A stretch of DNA of 64,000 nt from Tubulanus polymorphus (Eukaryota; Nemertea; Palaeonemertea; Tubulaniformes; Tubulanidae): contig NC_134027.1 of assembly GCF_964204645.1 (NCBI RefSeq), positions 9,350,485 through 9,414,484 of the forward strand. The letters are read 5' to 3'. Below the pieces are notes generated by a model. It was not told the DNA's origin. It saw nothing but the letters and a program-made list of their open reading frames with translations, and did not search any database. Below are positions 8,983-21,548 of the stretch, in pieces; positions within the stretch are counted from its first letter, which is position 1, and each line of letters opens with the position of its first letter. A program made the translations under genes and the position numbers.

Positions 8983-11900
8983 ATGGCGAGCGACGCAGTG
9001 GAGAAGCGGCGTGATTCGAAAAAATCAGCTACCGATTCTGCGGTTCACGACGGAAACGCCGTGCGATTAAAACCGAAAATCACCCTGGTCAATGGAGTAG
9101 CTTTGGTCGTCGGTACAATCATCGGATCCGGGATTTTCTTGACGCCGAAAGGAGTTCTTGATGGAGCCGGTAGTGTAAGTGTTCAAACAAACCAAAGTAC
9201 AATTCAATTAAGGATATTTGAGTTGATTATATAATAATTACAATAATTTTGAAAAATTCAGTTGATAGGAGATCTAAATAGTCCCTATAGCCTACTTTAC
9301 AAATAAGCCAGCATTATTCAAAGTTTCCACGCAACATTTATTTTTGGCATACAATAATAGATAAGATAGCTGGGACATACTCCGCGCGTAGGCGTAGTGA
9401 CCGGTATTTTATAATTCCCCATGATCAGTGTTTGTGTTAATTACAACAAATTGTTCTACGCAAATTTGCTTTAATGTTAAGAATGGGCCTATTCTTATTC
9501 TCATTCTCTATACCAGGAGGAATAAAGGATAGGCAAAGGTCAAACAGAGCCTAACAAACCATATAAAAGATACCAGCTTTGAAGTCAATCGATCCTTGTT
9601 ACAAGAGCTTGTTACACATTAGCATGATGCAATCACCTCTCTAGCTTCAGCAGTACAGTAGAAGGGAATCGAATATTATTGGAGATAATCAATCTTGCTT
9701 TGTGGTTTAAAAGTTACTTAATTTGAGGCCACACCAAAATTGTTCATTTTCTCAGCAGTAAGGATGAATATTTAAAAGTTTTCTTTTAATTGTGCTAGTT
9801 AGTTTGGGCAAAGTTCCTTAAGTTTTCCAAGCATCAATGGTCGATGCAAAAACGGTCAAGTCAGCAATCGACGGACAAAACCAATTCTATTAGGCCTACA
9901 AATATATTTCAATAACAAAGAATGTAGGCCGATTAGAATTGGATATTGGCTCCCAAGAGCTTACTTCTCGACCAACTTCAGTAGACTAATTTAATATAGA
10001 CCCCACAAACCTTTTAATAATGATAATTAATGTTTTATACAGCGCATAATCCAGCATTTAAAAACTGATCACAGGGCTTCACATGATAAAAGCCTAAAGA
10101 GCAATTTTAAAAGTTGGCCCCGAAGATCTCCAGAGATGTTTTAGACTAGAGCTCTCTGGGAAGCAGCTGATTCCACAGGCCTTTGATGGAAAAGCTTCAG
10201 GACCAAAATACTTTTTTCTGTCGTTTCAGGTTGGATTTTCGTTGATAATTTGGGCAGTATGCGGCGCGCTGTCCCTTCTCGGGGCTCTGTGTTACGCCGA
10301 ATTAGGTACAACGATTACGACTTCCGGTGGAGATTACATTTACATCATGGAAGCATTCGGCGGTTTGCCAGCATTTTTACAACTTTGGGTAAGTTGTTAT
10401 TTGATTCTTTCATTCATTTATTATTTCATCCTTTTATCGAGTCAGTATCCTTTTCTGTTAACGTCACGTAGGTTTGATTTTCTAAAACATTTTATCGCTT
10501 TTCTTAAGAAAGTTAATTTCAAATTGAACTTATCATTCGATTTATCTTTTGTCCAGGTGAATTTGATCGTTATAAGACCAACAGCTCAAGCGATTGTCGC
10601 CCTCGTGTTCGCCAACTACGCGTTAGTGCCATTTTTCCCTGGATGTGATCCTCCAGACATAGCTGCCCGCTTACTAGCTGCAATGTGTATATGTAAGTTT
10701 TAGGCATTGACAATAGAAGATTTAGTTGAACAAAAGCTCAGATCTTAGATGTTGTACACTTTAAGGCCCTACAATGTGACTAATTTATAATAAGCATGAA
10801 CAGGTCTAAGCCTATTTGTCTCTATGTGTTATTTATCTGCTAGTGTAGAGCATTAGGAGACGAATGTATGGTCAAGAGCTTCTACTTGGTAATAGTCAAT
10901 TGATTAACTGATTAGTTAAATTTGAAAAAAAACTTTAGTTAAAAGAGTTTATGATCCATGGTCTGGTCGATCTATTATGCGGGAGATAGTGAATGGCATG
11001 TAATGTTGGAGTAGGCCTAATGAATGAATAGCTCAAACAGACATTCAGACTGTAAGAACTAAAACCTTTGTTTGAACTTAATATAGCAGGCAATTTTTCC
11101 ATTGTAGCATTTCCTAACTATTGTCCCTTTATCACATCCCACTTATTAACTCTTACACTGTAACAAAAACATTTCTAGGGCCCCTATTATGAGATTTACT
11201 ATATAGACAAAAGCAAAACAAAAAAAATCTCAATAGGCTTATGTTGTGTTGATATGATTATACATAAATAAATTGTTTATTATCTTGCCTGACTTATGAA
11301 TTGAAATATCACGAAAGTAATTCAATCAATTTTCAAAAAGCTTTCACCAGTTTATGGGCATTAGTGGACCAAAATAATCTATATTTTTTAATGAGCCTTT
11401 TAAAAATCACAAGACTAAAAGATCAATCGCTAAGTTTAAGCACAGTGTACCTAGATTCCTTTGATAACCTCATGGACTTGGCACTGAATTTGTCAACTTT
11501 AGTTCCGTTTACCTTTTTAAAAGATACTTATCGTTAAAGAAATATTTACTCATGGACTATCGTTGATAATTGTACGTTTTAACAATCTGTTAAAATCTTG
11601 GTCGAACAATTGGTAGATTATTTTCTTAAATCTGCTTTATCTCAAGGAAACAATCTCTGAATTTGCTCTGTGAGTAACAATTGATTTCTTGAATTGAGCC
11701 TTCTCAATATCAATACTATCATGATCAATAAAATCAATAAACATTCATTCAGGTACCCAGTAACCAGGAAGCAACATTTCTGTGGACAACCATTCTTAAT
11801 TACTCCTTGCGATTATTACTCTAGATTCGGATACCGCGATACTTATGAAATGTCGAGCCTACAACAAAAATCTGTACATAGATATATGGGTTTTCCTTCC

Positions 11901-14900
11901 AAAATCATTGAAATCATTACGGCTTAGTTTTACAAACATCAGTGATATCGTTGTTCAAATTTAAGTAGTTTTGTCATGTTTCCTCAGTTTGGTTGTTAAA
12001 TATCCGGGTTTGATAAAATCTCAAAGTGGTTCGTTCTGTAGTGATTACTGTATTGACAAGATATGCAAAATGACACGGTAATCGTAGCATTGATGTGTTC
12101 TTTCTTATAGACAAATTTTCTTCCTTTGATAGTAGGAACTGTCGAATTAACTGCGAAAACCATATGAGGACCTTTGTATTTCATTCCTTTCGACAAAAAT
12201 CTTAGCTTCAAATTCAATAGCTTATGAGGAGCCATATGCCGAGGCTGATTTTCTGATATGTCATGTAAACCAATCAGGTCTGGACCATTGGATATTGGCA
12301 TTTGATGCGATCACTGTTGTGGCCTCAATTTCTATGCTAATTACTTGGCGTATGTGTTGATCTATCTGGTATTGACACCTACTACTCGGTTTTCTCTGGG
12401 TTGCCTGCTGTAAACGTGTCTTGTCTTCAGGGGTTCGGATTTTGCATTTACCAAAGCTTGCTATCATGAAGTTGGCGAAACCTCTTTGTTGTTCTCTTAA
12501 TCACATATTCTTACGTACATTCATGAAACATTTGAAATATAAATATGAATGATGAAATCAGTTTCTACAACGATACCAAATTTCGAATTTATCGCAGTTG
12601 TTTCATGAAGTCATGATTAAAGTAGATATTTTGATATCAGGGCAGATGGTTCTTCAAAGTCCATGTATACTTATTACAGATGTACTTGATAAAGAGGGTA
12701 TATCTGTCCCTTGCACTGGCTAACCAGACAGGCCATTGTTATCAAACTAAATTTGTCTAAATGCCTCTTCAAGTCGAGATGGGTCGATTTGCTTACCGTT
12801 AAATGATAATTGTAAGGCTTGATAAAATGACAGATTTTTTTCTGATATGCTAGGTCTGTTCGTGTGCATATTCCACCACCTGATACCTGAGCTATGAAAT
12901 ATGAACTAATTCGGTGTCATTTGGTGCGCCCCGATTGATAATAGAGTCATAGGGAGGTCATTAAGATTTATCAAATTGAATGCTCAGACTGATCATATGG
13001 AAGGATTACGTAGACATAAATGAAAAAAACTACCGCATATGAATAGCTTCAAGTGCTATATATATAATATATGTAAAAAGATCACTTAGCCAGACATCAA
13101 TTAAAAAGTAGGATGTGTGTTATGTTTGATACTAAAGCTGAGATGCAATAGTTGTAAGCATCAGAGTCGCCTCCCTTGTTTCGTGATTTATGTGGGCACT
13201 GGTAATAGCTGAATTTTAATCCTATTAAAGACATTTGGTAGTACAAAAAAGTAATGGCCTATTCAGTATCGAGCTAGGCCCATTTTGTCCCAGTCTGATA
13301 TTTAATACCATTTTTAACTACAACTACACGCTTTCTCATGACAAAAATTTAGTGAAGATGCTTTGAGAACATGCAAAGTTACCCTCGAACAACTTGAATA
13401 GCGGTACATTTATTTATAGAATAACCTCTTGAACCTGAAATTCAACCCATTCTCTATTAGAACACCACAAGACATATATCCATCAAATAGTTGTCGGAAT
13501 GTTTATTTCAGAATTACTTGAAGAATATAATAAGATGTTGTATATAGAGGTTCACGAGTCATCCAGAGTTCGAATATCTTTCTGCAAATAAGAAAACAAT
13601 ATCCGCAATCATATAGAGTTGATTTGGTCCAGCCCAAATTGGCCCGTATCAGGCCTAATAAGAGGGCACGTTCACTTGATACTAAACAATGCCGTGACAA
13701 AGCAAAGTTAATCAGCAAAGTTAATCGCAACTTTTTGACCCGTGCTGAAATTTGGTTCTGGCCTGTTTTTAAAAAATTTTTTTGGGTCGGGACTAATTTG
13801 GCGCAGGCTAAACAGGCACAGGCCCATTTGACACCTGTATGAATGGCCAAATGGCGTGTGTGATTGCGGCTATAGGATCCATTGCTAGAATTAGCTACCC
13901 CTCATGAAATGTTTAAGATTTTTAAAAAGGAAAATGCCTTGTAGCGAAGTGACGCTCATTTATTTTGTATGATACGGATTAATATAGCGTTGGAGTTTTT
14001 TTAGGTTTTTTATGGCAGTTTGAATTTATCCTGTGGCACTGTTCTTAAAGTTCCCTGGTTGAGATTTCTTCATATCATTAACAGGTATCCTAACGGCTAT
14101 AAATGCGATGAACGTGCGATGGGCGACACGAATTCAGGATCTGTTCACGGCTGCTAAATTACTAGCATTGGTAATACTTATAGGAACTGGGCTTGTAATG
14201 ATATGTATGGGTAAGTAATGGTGTTGGAGAAAGTTTGAATTCTGAGACGATGCCAAATTCTTTTGACAAATTTAATATGTGATAAACTGAAACATTTTGC
14301 TTGAAAATATGGGAAAAAAATCCACTGAATGAGAACATATGAAGGAAAAGTTTCCTCTAAGGAACTAGACGTATTGGCCCCACTCCGCGCGGTGGCGCCA
14401 CCCCGCGGGATTTAGGCGAAGCAGCAGAACACAAACACGGCCACTCTCTCAATTTTCAATGATAGAAATCGTGTGTGCATTTCAATTATTTCGGCTGTTA
14501 GGGTTTTAAGGCACAATATAAGTTGATGATGTGATATGGCAAAAACACTGAAATGTGCGTAGTTGCGTAACTATTTGCAGTGAATTGCAGACGGAACATG
14601 AAGCCTGAACGGCCGTTTAAAAAAAATTATACCAATCGCAATTGTAAAATAAAAATGAGATAGAACCTAAGTTAAAATTCTGGCCATTTCTAAAATGTTA
14701 TTAATTATTATTACTAATTTTTAGTCAGTGCGGAACGTTTAGTTTTCCAACAATAATGAGGGGTGGTAGGTAGTCATGCAATTCAAGTCATCATTTATTA
14801 CACGTTACTACCGTGTTGTTGAAAATCTCGCGAGTCCTGGACCAAACCCCAATGAACAATGTGATCTGTGTGCTGGCCACAAGTGTGCTGGCCACAAATG

Positions 14901-17900
14901 CACACAGATCACACTACACTACCCATTACACACTCCAGTACCCACAGCTTTCATATATCCATCCAAATATTAAGTGGCTTTCTTCCTGGGTTATACGTGT
15001 ATATGGACAACCAGAGTGGGTGGACAGATCTTATATTGCACAATGAGCCACCAACTGAAATTTTAACTGACCACCTTAGTTTTTGTAGATCTGTCTAGAC
15101 CGTGAAATATTCCACAAAGGGCAAATTTGCTCAGCTTAGTTTTATGGCAAGTGCAGTTCAGTAGACCGTTTTATCCATTCTGAATAAGATCTCCATTATT
15201 CAGACTATAGTCTAGTACCAAATGGCAAAAAAACGGACTGAAAAATTGGCCAATATGTTAGCTTTACATGAGATTGCAATGATTTCTGCAAAGGTTGGCT
15301 CTAATTTGGATGATGCAAAGCCACTGACTAAATCGTCAAAACCTCAAGTCAAAAGGGGCAGCTCCTATTTGATTTGTTCCTTTAAACTAAATGTTGTCCT
15401 GATGATTTTGTAGGACATACCCACTACTTTGAAAATGCTTTTGAGGGTACTACAACTGATGTTAAAAAGGCATCGCTGGCCCTCTACTCAGGATTATTTG
15501 CTTATGCTGGATGGTAAGTAGAGCTATTATTTGTACAATTAGTCTTCGCTGTAGCTTGAAATTTGATTATTGTTTTTTAACGTGTGGCTTTGTTGCTTTA
15601 ACGACATCATTTGGAACAATTGATGTAGCCGAATTTTAGCTGCGGCTACTCTGCTATTACTATACTACATTGTAAAACATGTGCTATAAATCTAATGAAC
15701 ATATTCAACCGCAGTTCTTCATCCTTACTGTGGATGACACTTCACACTTCTGAGACAACCAGACAAACAGAAGAAAGCATGTTCAAACTTTATTCAGCAT
15801 AGTAGACTGAAGACTACCTTATGTGGAATGACAAACCTAAGTTAAATTGTCATGCTTTCATACATTATTCCAGTCACAATAGGTTATTGCCGATTGTTAA
15901 AATAGTTCAGCTTTTTCCGTTATTCGTTAAACCCTCCAAAAGGCCAAATAAGTGCATTTCTTTATTCGAGAGTGTGTCCAACAAATGCTTGCATTTTTGG
16001 CCCATGCCATATTAGGCCAGGAACACCTGTTCACACCTGTGCCAAATCGTCTCTGCCGGTTTTTGACCATGAACGAACAAGTCAATACATATCAATCCTG
16101 TCTTCGACACTTACTTTGGTTGAATTTGCGAAAGTGAGTCTGGCAAGGAAATCAAACGGCGAAGAAAAACAATTCAACTTGTTGACCCTTAGTTCTTATC
16201 TGGCTATCCCTTAAACGGTTCGATCAGTGATCGCCACCAGACTAACGTGCAAACCTTTTAGGAGCTATAGCCTATGTATAAAAAGCTTTTTGAAATACAT
16301 TTTCATTTATACGACGGTACTCTGAAAGCTGAGGGTAAGAAAAAATTAGGGTGATAATATTTAAAGCCACATCAAAGCCCTTAAAGCCCTTAGGGCTTCT
16401 TGTTTTATGATATCTCATGTAATATAGAAAATGTTTAACCACTTAAGTGAATTGTTGTGGAAGTGATATGAATGACGAATTGCCTTCATTTGCTGAAGTA
16501 TGGTAAAGTAGGCTGTTGTGGAAGATTTTCTGAAAATTTCGTCTCAAGGTTGTTGGTTTATGTTTCATTTCAATGCGGTTAGGTTTCACAATATTCTGCG
16601 TAATCTTTCTCGCAACATGTCTAGAAAGCTACGCAAATTCTTGTTTAGACACTTAAAACTTTTTTGAAGGAAAGATTAATGATTGTTTTCCGATTGATAA
16701 GATGTATTGCACCTCTCCTGGTTAACGTGCCCATCATGAGCTAGTGAATTGCCAATTGAACCTGGCATTTTAAAAGTTTCTCAAATTCTGAGGAACTCTC
16801 TCTCTTTCGTTAACCAACTGCCATCAACAGAATCTATGTGTATGGTCATTGTAGTCTAGTAGTCTGATGTAATACATATATGACATTGTTGAATTTCAAA
16901 GATATACAGTTTATTTCAATATAATGAATGCCAGCTGGTGCTAAGTGTGTAGGTGATATTTAATATCCAAGGTGATATGTAAGCTGGTGCGAAACGTGAC
17001 TTCGTGACGCAATCTGATTGAACTACGTTACAGGATAAGACTTTGTTGATTTATTCATTTCATATTTTAGAACTCAGATGATAGCCGCAATCACACGAGC
17101 ATTTTTGGCCGAAAATATGACTTACTTCACTTAGTTTAAGCATTGTTGTTTAGTATGGAGTGAGTGGTTTACGTGTGAACAAGCTCTCTAAATGGGCCAA
17201 ATTTGACTCGGACCTGATCCGTGCCAATTTGGCCCGGGCCAAATCATCACCATATGGTTGATCACGGCTAGTATGAACTCTAGTCTCTCGTAGTGGGATT
17301 GATTTCCATATTAACTCATTTGAATCGTTGTTGATATGAAAATCGTCATGTGCTATAAAATACATCGACCTATCTTGCACACATTTTTGTATGCTTGACT
17401 TGAACACAGTCACACCGCAAAAACTGATTTATCTCTATAATCTTGTCATCTATTAGGAATCACATGACTGGCGATTATAAAAACTATGTTCGGCTTCGCG
17501 GGGAAGGCCATCAACGTTAATTGTGCTTTTTTTTTTAAATGACAAATGGAATCGTGAAATTTATGCGTTTTTGATCATAATCGCGAATGCCTCCGTAATT
17601 GGGGCGATTCATGTATCAATTTAGCGCTGCGCCGCAGGAGGAATTAGATAAATCAGTCTAGTGTTGGTTTTGATAATAAATTGTCGAGAGTAATTTGATC
17701 CAAAAGTTTACAGTAGTACATTTTCATATCTCGTGTTGTCTCAAGTTTATCTTCAAATTCACGTCAATGATAATTATTTCTGAATGATTAAGGTCGTCTC
17801 GTATCTTATCGTTAACTCAAAAACTTGTTGAGATAAAATCGTCACATTTGCATGTCAGGTGGTTTCGCGTGGCATGAAGATGAATTCGATGAATGCATTC

Positions 17901-20900
17901 GAGATGGCTGAGTAGTCACCGTGGCTATATATTCTTGGAATCTTAGAAAAATGTACATTTTACTCTGTAACTGGATTTTTGTTTATGTAGGGTATTCATA
18001 TATTACGTATAGGTAGTATTCATGTATCAATAGTCAATATACCATCCAAGATGGCTATGTGGTGGCCATCTTTGATTAAAAAAATGTTGGCCTGTAACAT
18101 TGAATTTATTTCATAAGCAATGATTTCTCCAATGAATTGATTCATTTTTTGTGAATAACTGATGAAAAACCAAAGCAATTAAAAAAGAAACCAATGTTAT
18201 TGCTTGGTTTTTATTGGGATGTCCGGGAATGTGCTTGCGCTTGCAAGGCAGTTTCTGATTCGATTTCTGACCACTAATGTTAAGAAAGCCATCTTAATTA
18301 TGTCTGATAATTATTCCTGATGGATAAGCTTGCTTTATCATGTCTAAGACACGCACAAGTTCGTGCAAAAAGCATTATAATCTGTTTGTGGATAGAGAAA
18401 AAAGGTATGTAACTATTCAGGATGCGCAGAAATAAGATTGGATAACAACCAAATGGGTTGGATCTGCCTGAAAGCTTGAATGCAATAAGGTCTATCAATA
18501 ACACTATGAAGTGTGTTATCAAGATACAACATATTTATTCTTATGTGATGACGATATATTTTTCCTTTGATAGAAATCGTACAAAATCTTTAGTTTTGAG
18601 TAGGTTTAAATTGTATCTACAGTTTTCTATTTGTGGAAATTGCCCCTAAACTGCTCTGTTCAAAAATCAAAATTAACTGAACTGGTATTCAGGTTTTGAT
18701 GGATGGTTTTGGAAAGGTTGAGGATTTTCATGCCATTACACCTATTTCTCATCCATGAGTGGGGAACACTGGTGTTCCTGCAATTTAACCTAAAAAAGGC
18801 ATCCAATACGCGGCTTGTATCAAATGTTAAATCGTTATACACTATTATCAAATGAATTGATAAGAATAGCTTCATAACAGGACAGTAACATGTGGACAGA
18901 TGTATGCATATGATTTTGTATACCGCTATAGCCAATCTACAGCTGTTATGTACTACAAACACGTGTTGGCGCCATTTTTGTGCATTTTCACAGCTTTTCT
19001 AAAAATGATGTCGCCATAAATTTCTGTCCGTTAGTGCTCATCGACAGAAAAAAGTATCTAAAAGATAGACGCAAATTGGGAATCCTCCCAATTTTCAAAT
19101 AGCTTGTGAACGAAAAGGCTACAAAAAAAAGAATTGCATTCATTCCTTATGGTATCTTTTCAGGAATTTCCTCAACTTTGTTACCGAAGAATTAAAAGAT
19201 CCATTTGTAAATCTACCGCGAGCTATTTATATCAGTATACCGATCGTGACGTCAATCTACTGTCTAGCAAATGTAGCCTACTTCAGCGTATTGTCCAAAT
19301 ATGACATCATGGAATCAACAGCAGTGGCAGTTGTTAGTATAAAATACTATTGAATTTATTCTAAAAATATCAGAACCCACTATTCTGCAGATATATATCA
19401 GTATCTATTATTTTGATTATGATTAACGTATATGCCTTAAAATTTACAGTCGTTTGGTGGTAAAGTGTTCTCATTCATGGCATGGATAATACCAGTTTTT
19501 GTATCGCTATCCTGTTTCGGAAGTGTGAACGGTCTGCTGTTTACCTCAGGAAGGTATGTACCGGTAATTCGATGACTCGTGTGTGTGCAAGTGTCAATAT
19601 TTACATGTTGATACCAAGTAAGGAGGTAGTTTACTGAAGGTTTCATTTCAGGCCCGGTTAAATGAGGCAATTTGTATCAAAAATTCCACCCTAGTGTGTT
19701 GAACAACAGGAATACCACTATAGTGCGCCTACACTGCGGCGCTGTGTATCGTTAGTTACAAGTATTTCACTATGTTTGACACGTGCTGCCATTTTTCAAG
19801 AGAGATAATTACTAATTACATCAATACACCGCAGTGCGGTGTACTAGCAAAATCTATCACTGATTTATTCACCGCACTGCGGTGTAGACGCACTGAAAGG
19901 GTTAAACTGAAAAAACTCTAAAAAAGAGTTACAATACTAACTATACCTACATGTCGAGCAGTCTATACCAACTGTAAAATATCATAATAATTCTCTATGT
20001 GCTTGTTCGTGGAATTATTTCAGGCTATTTTTCGTCGGTGGACGCGAAGGTCATCTGCCTGGATTCTTGTCAATGATTCACCTACGGCGTTATACTCCGA
20101 TGCCGGCTCTGCTGTTTACTGTAAGTGTCAACTAATGAACGATTTCATCGAACATATTTCAGGTTATTCTTCGTCGGAGCTAGAGAGGGCCATTTGCCGG
20201 CCGCGTTGGCCATGATCCACGTGCGTCGTTGCACGCCGATGGCCGCCTTACTGTTCACTGTAAGTCATTCGGATTCAGGAGTGAGGACTTGAGCTGCCGG
20301 CTTGCTTAACGTGCAGCATCACTCGCCTTGGGTCCTGTAATGATCATTGCTGCATGAATTTCTAACGGATAGTACAGTATTGTCATAGATTGCATGCAGA
20401 ACCCTATGCCTGAAATTTGCATTTGATAGTTTCGTGCCGTTTTCAACTAGGAGAACAAACTTGTACTAGCATGAAACCGAAGACCCTATGGGCATACTTA
20501 ACGACCGTGATTACCATTCAGAATGACTGTTTTGATGATATTCAGTGTAATGACTGTGACAGATTTTCACATGATATTCACTACGCGTTAATTATGCTTG
20601 CATTTTGTGTATGAATTCCATCCTTTGGGATGCATGATTAATCAAAAATGTTTTGAAACCATGAATGTATCATATTCCTTAGTATCCATGTATTGGTAAT
20701 AGAGGGAGTTAGTGCTGCTACTGCTATGAATACTGGTTATTAGCCTAGTTAGTTCCAAAAACCTAGCATCCTACTGGGTTAAGCTAGATTTCATGGATTT
20801 GACCCTCCTATATGAAATATGGTATAGCATTGATCCATGCAACCACTTAACAACCAGTGTGATAATTCACCCTTATGTCCAAAAACCGACTTTACTTTTT

Positions 20901-21548
20901 CCTTTTTTAGGGTTTGATGTCTCTTATCATGTTGACATCGGGTGAAATATTTGCGCTATTAAACTATATGAGTTTTGCGCAGTGGCTGTCAGTCGGAGCG
21001 TCGATCGCTGGTATGGTATATTTAAGATACAAACGTCCAGAAATGAAACGGCCAATTAAGGTAATTACTGTAACATTAAATCCAGCTTAATTATCACGAG
21101 AGACTCGTCATTTGAATTGTCTGTAGGTTTCTAATGTTGATTACTTTTTCGTTGCAGTACCCGCTTATCATACCGATTTTGTTCCTGTTAGCCGTACTGT
21201 TCTTGCTGATAGTTCCATTATTTGCTGCTCCACGCGATACTGGAATTGGCCTACTAATAATATGCTCTGGTATCCCTGTTTACTGGCTAGGTGTCAGTTG
21301 GAAACGAAAACCGAAAGCCTTCACTAGATTTGTCGGTAAGTTTGTTATACAATATCGAAAATTCAAATGTACATGATATATTGAGAATAAGTGAGAATTG
21401 TTGTTTCTCCCTTGAAGAATTTGCCAGAAGACTGCATTCCATAGCATGGATAATTTGCTGAACCGAGAATGTTATTTTTTGTGAACTTTCAGATAAAGCG
21501 ACAAAAAGATTACAGCAATTGTTACTGGTAGTTCCTCAAGAAGATTAG
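8983..21548 (+). CDS. SLC7A8-like: LAT-type large neutral amino-acid transporter light chain (SLC7A5/SLC7A8 family)
   Basis: Exons: 8983-9174, 10230-10388, 10557-10692, 14085-14210, 15414-15513, 19164-19332, 19450-19553, then either 20024-20120 (8a) or 20163-20259 (8b), 20911-21060, 21158-21335, 21493-21548. All have GT-AG borders and closing phases; total 488 aa, close to the family length. It is the 12-helix light chain of a heteromeric exchanger at the plasma membrane. TM1 carries the substrate-binding [10 protein letters not shown]. The extracellular loop between TM3 and TM4 has PFFPGC, whose Cys147 matches the residue that disulphide-bonds the SLC3A2 (4F2hc) heavy chain. Also present are [15 protein letters not shown], the LSCFGSVNG of TM8 and a C-terminus LLLVVPQED like LAT1. 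[13 protein letters not shown] is especially close to LAT2. The start is supported by a short hydrophilic N-terminus before KITLVNGV. Vertebrate LAT1 and LAT2 are probably co-orthologues. Confidence 0.93.
10693..14084 (+). other. transporter intron 3
   Basis: A 3.4-kb intron from ATAT|GTAAGT to AACAG|GTATCC. It contains the TIR element at 13601-13871 and low-complexity AT stretches. Open frames of up to 101 codons near 11996-12467 (minus) show no recognisable domain or splice context. Confidence 0.7.
13601..13871. mobile_element. TIR element, GGCCCGGGCC-type family (copy 2)
   Basis: About 271 bp with inverted ends ATCCGCAATCATA and AGCCGCAATCACA. Inside are several GGCCC/GGGCC-containing blocks such as CAGCCCAAATTGGCCCG. 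Open frames of 72 and 115 codons overlap on opposite strands and reflect the repeat rather than a gene. It lies in a transporter intron. Confidence 0.55.
15264..15357 (+). repeat. 94-bp repeated coding-like block, copy 1
   Basis: It matches 25678-25771 at 92 of 94 positions. The frame starting at ATG 15222 ([19 protein letters not shown]) reads [20 protein letters not shown] across the block. Both differences between copies are synonymous in this frame. It lies in transporter intron 4 but is not part of the transporter. The family is not recognised; it may be part of a mobile-element ORF. Confidence 0.6.
15514..19163 (+). other. transporter intron 5
   Basis: A 3.65-kb intron between GGATG|GTAAGT and TTTTCAG|GAATTTC. 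It contains the TIR element at 17083-17269 and otherwise unremarkable AT-rich sequence. I see no exon or RNA gene in it. Confidence 0.65.
17083..17269. mobile_element. TIR element, GGCCCGGGCC-type family (copy 3)
   Basis: Left end AGCCGCAATCACACGAGCA; right end the complement of AGCCGTGATCAACCA. The interior contains GCCAATTTGGCCCGGGCC, shared with the copy at 6162-6244. Confidence 0.55.
19718..19905. mobile_element. MITE with CACCGCAGTGCGGTG ends, in transporter intron 7
   Basis: Left end AGTGCGCCTACACTGCGGCG (about 19720). The right end at about 19896, read on the other strand, is AGTGCGTCTACACCGCAGTG. An internal ACACCGCAGTGCGGTGTA palindrome lies near 19829. It sits about 120 bp upstream of exon 8a. 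Confidence 0.6.
20024..20120 (+). CDS. transporter alternative exon 8a
   Basis: A 97-nt exon with acceptor TTATTTCAG and donor ACT|GTAAGT. With the split Arg codon from exon 7 it encodes residues 329-361: the cytoplasmic end of TM8, the intracellular loop and the start of TM9 ([13 protein letters not shown], then [18 protein letters not shown]). GREGHLP and LSMIH resemble LAT1. Copy 8b follows after 42 bases. Confidence 0.9.
20163..20259 (+). CDS. transporter alternative exon 8b
   Basis: A second 97-nt exon with acceptor ATATTTCAG and donor ACT|GTAAGT, in the same phase as 8a. It encodes [13 protein letters not shown] then [18 protein letters not shown], identical to 8a at 25 of 32 full codons. 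The GAREGHLP and LAMIHV+RCTP pattern is that of vertebrate LAT2. The substitutions are conservative and the frame is intact, so it does not look like a dead copy. Confidence 0.9.

Follow-up and report, generated by a model that had tools for sequence, protein, structure and literature searches.

A tandem pair of probably mutually exclusive exons in a LAT-type amino-acid transporter gene of the nemertean Tubulanus polymorphus

In a transporter gene of Tubulanus polymorphus, two adjacent and closely similar exons encode alternative versions of the same protein segment, and only a very short stretch of DNA lies between them. This arrangement raises the question of whether the gene supplies two proteins through a choice between the copies, or whether only one copy counts. 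We studied the locus in a window of 64,000 nucleotides (contig NC_134027.1, forward-strand positions 9,350,485 to 9,414,484); positions given without a contig are those of the window. In this report, we argue that the two exons, here termed 8a and 8b, are very likely spliced in a mutually exclusive manner, where their use in transcripts is what we infer from the DNA. By this means, a single LAT-type SLC7 light-chain gene would quite probably yield two full-length proteins. The support for the pair comes from the sequence of one genome. The features on which the argument draws are as follows.

8983..21548, plus strand: complete LAT-type SLC7 light-chain gene with 11 coding exons, an open GT-AG exon chain, with tblastn matches to LAT1 and LAT2
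19450..19553, plus strand: constitutive exon 7, the upstream partner, with a phase-2 end within a conserved Arg (AG/G)
20024..20120, plus strand: exon 8a, encoding 32 complete residues and scoring nearer to LAT1 than to LAT2
20121..20162, plus strand: spacer of 42 nt between 8a and 8b, below intron size in this genome
20131..20140, plus strand: putative branch point of exon 8b, ACTAATGAAC, recognized by sequence match only
20163..20259, plus strand: exon 8b, encoding 32 complete residues and scoring nearer to LAT2 than to LAT1
20911..21060, plus strand: constitutive exon 9, the downstream partner, with phase-0 entry

The identity of the gene is readily assigned. Whichever copy is included, the reading frame that opens with the ATG at 8983 and closes with a TAG whose last base is 21548 gives an unbroken product of 488 amino acids. 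When exon 8 is masked, LAT1 is the highest-scoring natural protein of solved structure (about 520 bits), followed by LAT2 (491), y+LAT2 (489), y+LAT1 (463), xCT (462), Asc-1 (437) and b0,+AT (431-433); under the same masking, a consensus construct engineered from xCT reaches 544 bits. The match to LAT1 is far above that to CAT-1 (32 bits), which places the product in the LAT subfamily. A Cys is present in the segment aligned to LFPTCPVPEE of LAT1, and we take this residue to be the one that bridges LAT1 to its SLC3 heavy chain. A gene for an SLC3A2-type partner also exists in the genome (SLC3A2_N match, E 2.2e-30). By sequence, then, the predicted product is a LAT-type light chain. Searches with the exon region and with a CAT-1 segment recovered the matching solved entries.

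Exons 8a and 8b are adjacent homologs of equal length and phase: each is 97 nt long, enters in phase 2 and leaves in phase 0, and the two have in common a TTTCAG acceptor and an ACT/GTAAGT donor. A preliminary description of this DNA had given the coordinates, lengths, phases, donors and 42-nt gap of the pair, its place at residues 329-361, and ACTAATGAAC at 20131, and all of these proved exact on re-reading. It had also given 25 of 32 codons as common to both copies. This figure holds for amino acids (25/32), but identical codons number only 11 of 32; at the nucleotide level, the copies match at 66 of 97 positions.

The distribution of these differences is informative. Comparison of 8a with 8b yields a dN of 0.13-0.16 with saturated dS, and 19 of the 31 nucleotide differences lie at third positions (p = 0.0013 against the one third expected). 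When 31 random changes were placed in either copy in 50,000 trials of a neutral simulation, none retained 25 of 32 residues (the mean kept was 14/32), and a stop codon arose in about half of the trials. A neutral pseudo-exon is ruled out by this result. None of the seven replacements falls in a column that is invariant across the family (R1, T25 and P26) or nearly so (G10, L12 and P13). The low dN at saturated dS, taken together with the simulations, indicates that both copies have been under selection; from their sequences, 8a and 8b are judged to have been maintained as protein-coding exons over a long time.

These data bear directly on the most serious alternative, namely that only one exon is used today and that the other is a long-functional relic, recently abandoned. 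The use of both copies is, after all, a prediction from the DNA, and at a position that is Pro in most relatives (MPALLF), 8b has Ala (MAALLF). However, frames, acceptors and donors are intact in both copies, each is a good match to human LATs (73% and 78% to LAT2), and neutral decay is excluded across the time taken for silent sites to saturate. We thus consider a relic to be unlikely, and favor the continued use of both exons.

If both exons are used, could they be used together? The reading frame argues otherwise: joining 8a to 8b shifts the frame and brings a stop at codon 7 of 8b, skipping both brings one at the second codon beyond the junction, and retention of the spacer brings one at the spacer's fifth codon. 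The spacer itself is also remarkably short. Among 70 other introns in the CCT, myosin and SLC7 genes of this genome, the shortest measured about 71-80 nt, with an estimated minimum of 71 nt; most of the lengths from these three gene families are estimates, good to about +/-10 nt, and on exact inspection the best-scoring resolved short introns were mostly 77-92 nt. The remaining introns of the transporter gene are all at least 97 nt. Further, the best branch-point candidate in the spacer, CTAAT, has its A at 20135, which is spacer base 15 and lies 27 nt before the 8b acceptor. Splicing is sterically hindered when a 5' splice site and a branch point are less than ~50 nt apart (PMC7969005; PMC5740500), and every branch point within a 42-nt spacer must violate that threshold. 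The pair therefore fits the steric-hindrance class on both counts, the donor-to-branch-point distance and a spacer below the intron floor of the genome. Splicing out the spacer looks implausible in this genome, judging from these lengths, and the earlier suggestion that a spliceosome should not fit there is supported by the same comparisons. The broader claim of a steric, mutually exclusive exon pair in a LAT-type gene likewise gains support: both copies show selection, the reading frame tolerates only one of them, and the spacer lies below the intron floor.

A second alternative is that the spacer is in fact spliced, and that the joined form is a frameshifting poison product that cuts gene output instead of contributing to two proteins. 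Good GT and AG signals do stand at the two ends of the spacer, and the joined form does stop early in 8b, at its seventh codon. The spacer, however, is about half the length of the shortest intron seen in the genome, and a pure poison exon has no need of the conserved protein sequence found in both copies. We regard this explanation as very improbable and retain mutually exclusive use as the preferred one.

The sequence suggests how such exclusivity may be enforced. With the donor of 8a and the branch point of 8b on the same spacer, U1 and U2 would be too close for both to engage, and joining of 8a to 8b would be sterically blocked; rare joins that did form could be removed by nonsense-mediated decay. 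U1 bound at the 8a donor would mask the branch point of 8b, such that 8a might serve as the default exon, and a factor that hides 8a could admit 8b. We found little to implicate RNA structure: the region folds only slightly better than shuffled sequences (z -1.5; 2 of 20 shuffles were as good). Intron hairpins were considered as docking structures and rejected, given that the palindromes at 19825-19886 are part of a dispersed repeat and that folding is near that of shuffles; there is thus no case for control of this kind. The repeat deserves description in its own right. Perfect palindromes (TACACCGCASTGCGGTGTA) occur in intron 7 at 19729-19886 of the window, and 1,535 exact palindrome copies are present genome-wide, often as pairs whose offsets are constant, at about 43 and 102 nt.

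The pair is unique in its surroundings and in the genome (268 Mb in 77 contigs), where it occupies a single place on a chromosome-scale contig. Among 252 pairs of AG-97 nt-GT segments at comparable spacing on the plus strand of the window, the next-best pair matches at 37/97 positions versus 66/97 for 8a and 8b. Chance or assembly error is ruled out by these facts, and an assembly or allele artefact, for which no favorable point was found, is extremely improbable, as a nucleotide divergence of 32% cannot reflect two alleles of one exon. The sole long direct repeat in the region, 111 nt at a spacing of 139, is the 8a/8b pair, which suggests that it arose by a short tandem duplication that included too little of the intron for splicing. 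This configuration suggests that the exons may have been exclusive from birth. Rfam and tRNA scans of the window gave no matches.

Of 16 other LAT-type paralogs in the same genome, none has a duplicated exon 8; all are single-copy, and the duplication is confined, in this genome, to this LAT gene. Fifteen of the 16 retain the phase-2 acceptor at the conserved arginine and the phase-0 donor after the segment, which identifies exon 8, on sequence grounds, as an old unit. The remaining one (C2:26289446-26289694), which is the paralog closest in the segment, has lost both introns that flank exon 8.

What does this unit encode? Fold positions were taken from alignment to solved relatives. Exon 8 aligns without gaps to LAT1 348-380, LAT2 339-371 and y+LAT1 333-365, and its counterpart in the fold, by homology, is late TM8, the inner loop and early TM9. 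Two lysinuric protein intolerance changes of y+LAT1, L334R and G338D, fall inside the aligned segment; they have been placed in exon 8 of human SLC7A7 (PMC6399926; PMC7303845).

The same part of the fold is subject to alternative splicing elsewhere in SLC7. In the CATs, the stretch subject to alternative splicing comprises the second half of TM8 and continues through the first half of TM9 (PMC7584565), and in the arginine transporter CAT-2 it gives a ten-fold difference in affinity that has been traced in part to Arg369, the equivalent of Arg334 in GkApcT (PMC5803215). In ungapped alignments of a CAT-1 segment, GkApcT position 334 lies opposite Arg346 of LAT2, inside exon 8. The alternative exons of SLC7A2 (CAT-2A/CAT-2B) and of teleost slc7a1a (6a/6b) resemble 8a and 8b in swapping late TM8, the loop and early TM9, but those genes are of the CAT branch, whereas the present one is of the LAT branch. 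Another distinction concerns the switch residue, which differs between the CAT-2 isoforms; at the site aligned to Arg369 of CAT-2A, 8a and 8b do not differ, having Arg in both, and it is the preceding residue that varies (Gly/Ala). We therefore do not class the pair as a CAT-type switch, and the analogy is one of segment, not of residue. The segment concerned is the same as in the CATs, and the mechanism is plausibly similar.

The CAT genes of this genome have no duplicated segment, and their exon limits in this region are different or absent. These facts favor convergence over shared inheritance, and from the sequences the switchable segments of LAT and CAT are apparently convergent, with independent origins. 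There are about seven CAT-type SLC7 genes, all on contig C7, and several have the TM8-TM9 segment in one long exon.

A second comparison sets the pair against the vertebrate LATs. Over 116 amino acids around the exon, aligned without gaps, the 8a version scores 142 bits with LAT1 versus 136 with LAT2, and the 8b version 144 bits with LAT2 versus 138 with LAT1. At four of the seven differing sites, 8b is identical to LAT2 (Ala, Ala, Val and Cys); the residues that tell the copies apart include S/A, L/V and Y/C. In vertebrates, LAT1 (SLC7A5) and LAT2 (SLC7A8) are encoded by separate genes; here, both versions are in one gene. This hints that splicing may supply in this worm what two genes supply in vertebrates, with 32 residues too few to separate ancestry from convergence. 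We offer only tentatively, as a rather doubtful proposal, the combined reading that TM8-loop-TM9 was made splice-switchable independently in CAT and LAT and that one gene supplies LAT1-like and LAT2-like inner gates.

Functionally, the exon swap would alter the cytoplasmic gate, in the TM8-loop-TM9 segment described above. Such a change could shift the apparent affinity, the asymmetry of exchange or the range of substrates, in the way that the CAT-2A/2B swap acts on the homologous segment. Arguing by this analogy, we consider that an effect of the swap on affinity or selectivity has about an even chance of being real.

Exclusion by proximity has precedents. In alpha-tropomyosin and in exons 4a/4b of OGDH, the branch point of the second exon is too near the donor of the first, and forms with both exons in are not made (PMC7969005). 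The crowding of branch point and upstream donor is as in 8a and 8b, but in those genes the intron is longer and the branch point unusually far from its own acceptor; here, the spacer is 42 nt and the branch point lies at a normal 27 nt. The exon arrays of invertebrate muscle myosin heavy chain genes also consist of tandem alternative exons, and the same genome has an example. Unlike 8a and 8b, the copies in this example are hundreds of bases apart, such that spacing alone would not make them exclusive. In the example, a muscle-type gene (C4:4125126-4126944, minus strand), one motor-domain exon (NLEDQIIxANPVLEAYGNAKTxRNNNSSRF) is present in four tandem copies, each with a GTAAGTAA donor and about 550-590 nt apart; they likely form an alternative-exon array, judging from their sequences.

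In the open-access literature, we found no report of an exon pair of this kind in a LAT gene. The preliminary description had known of no described LAT isoform of this kind, and open-access papers are consistent with this; the novelty is qualified by the CAT branch, in which alternative exons are known to exchange the homologous segment (SLC7A2 and teleost slc7a1a). Steric mutually exclusive splicing is thus a known kind of control, and its use in a LAT gene appears, within that literature, to be new. If our reading is correct, splice tuning of SLC7 transporters has evolved twice at the same thirty-odd residues, and the inner-gate segment would constitute a modular control of affinity or selectivity. 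The two natural variants, which differ at only seven residues, would then allow a test of how affinity and exchange asymmetry are set in LAT transporters, a family targeted by drugs and in cancer, and the 42-nt spacing makes this locus a very clean natural case of steric exclusion.

Searches of the genome brought some additional observations. Relatives of the gene were not found in viral contigs. The LAT-type light-chain family is expanded, with tandem clusters at C2:20567285-20592433, C5:9852121-9859635 and C3:4212599-4218143. Finally, a small contig contains an intronless, single-frame GroEL-like reading frame of 575 amino acids (C31:7097-8704), which is possibly bacterial DNA within the assembly.
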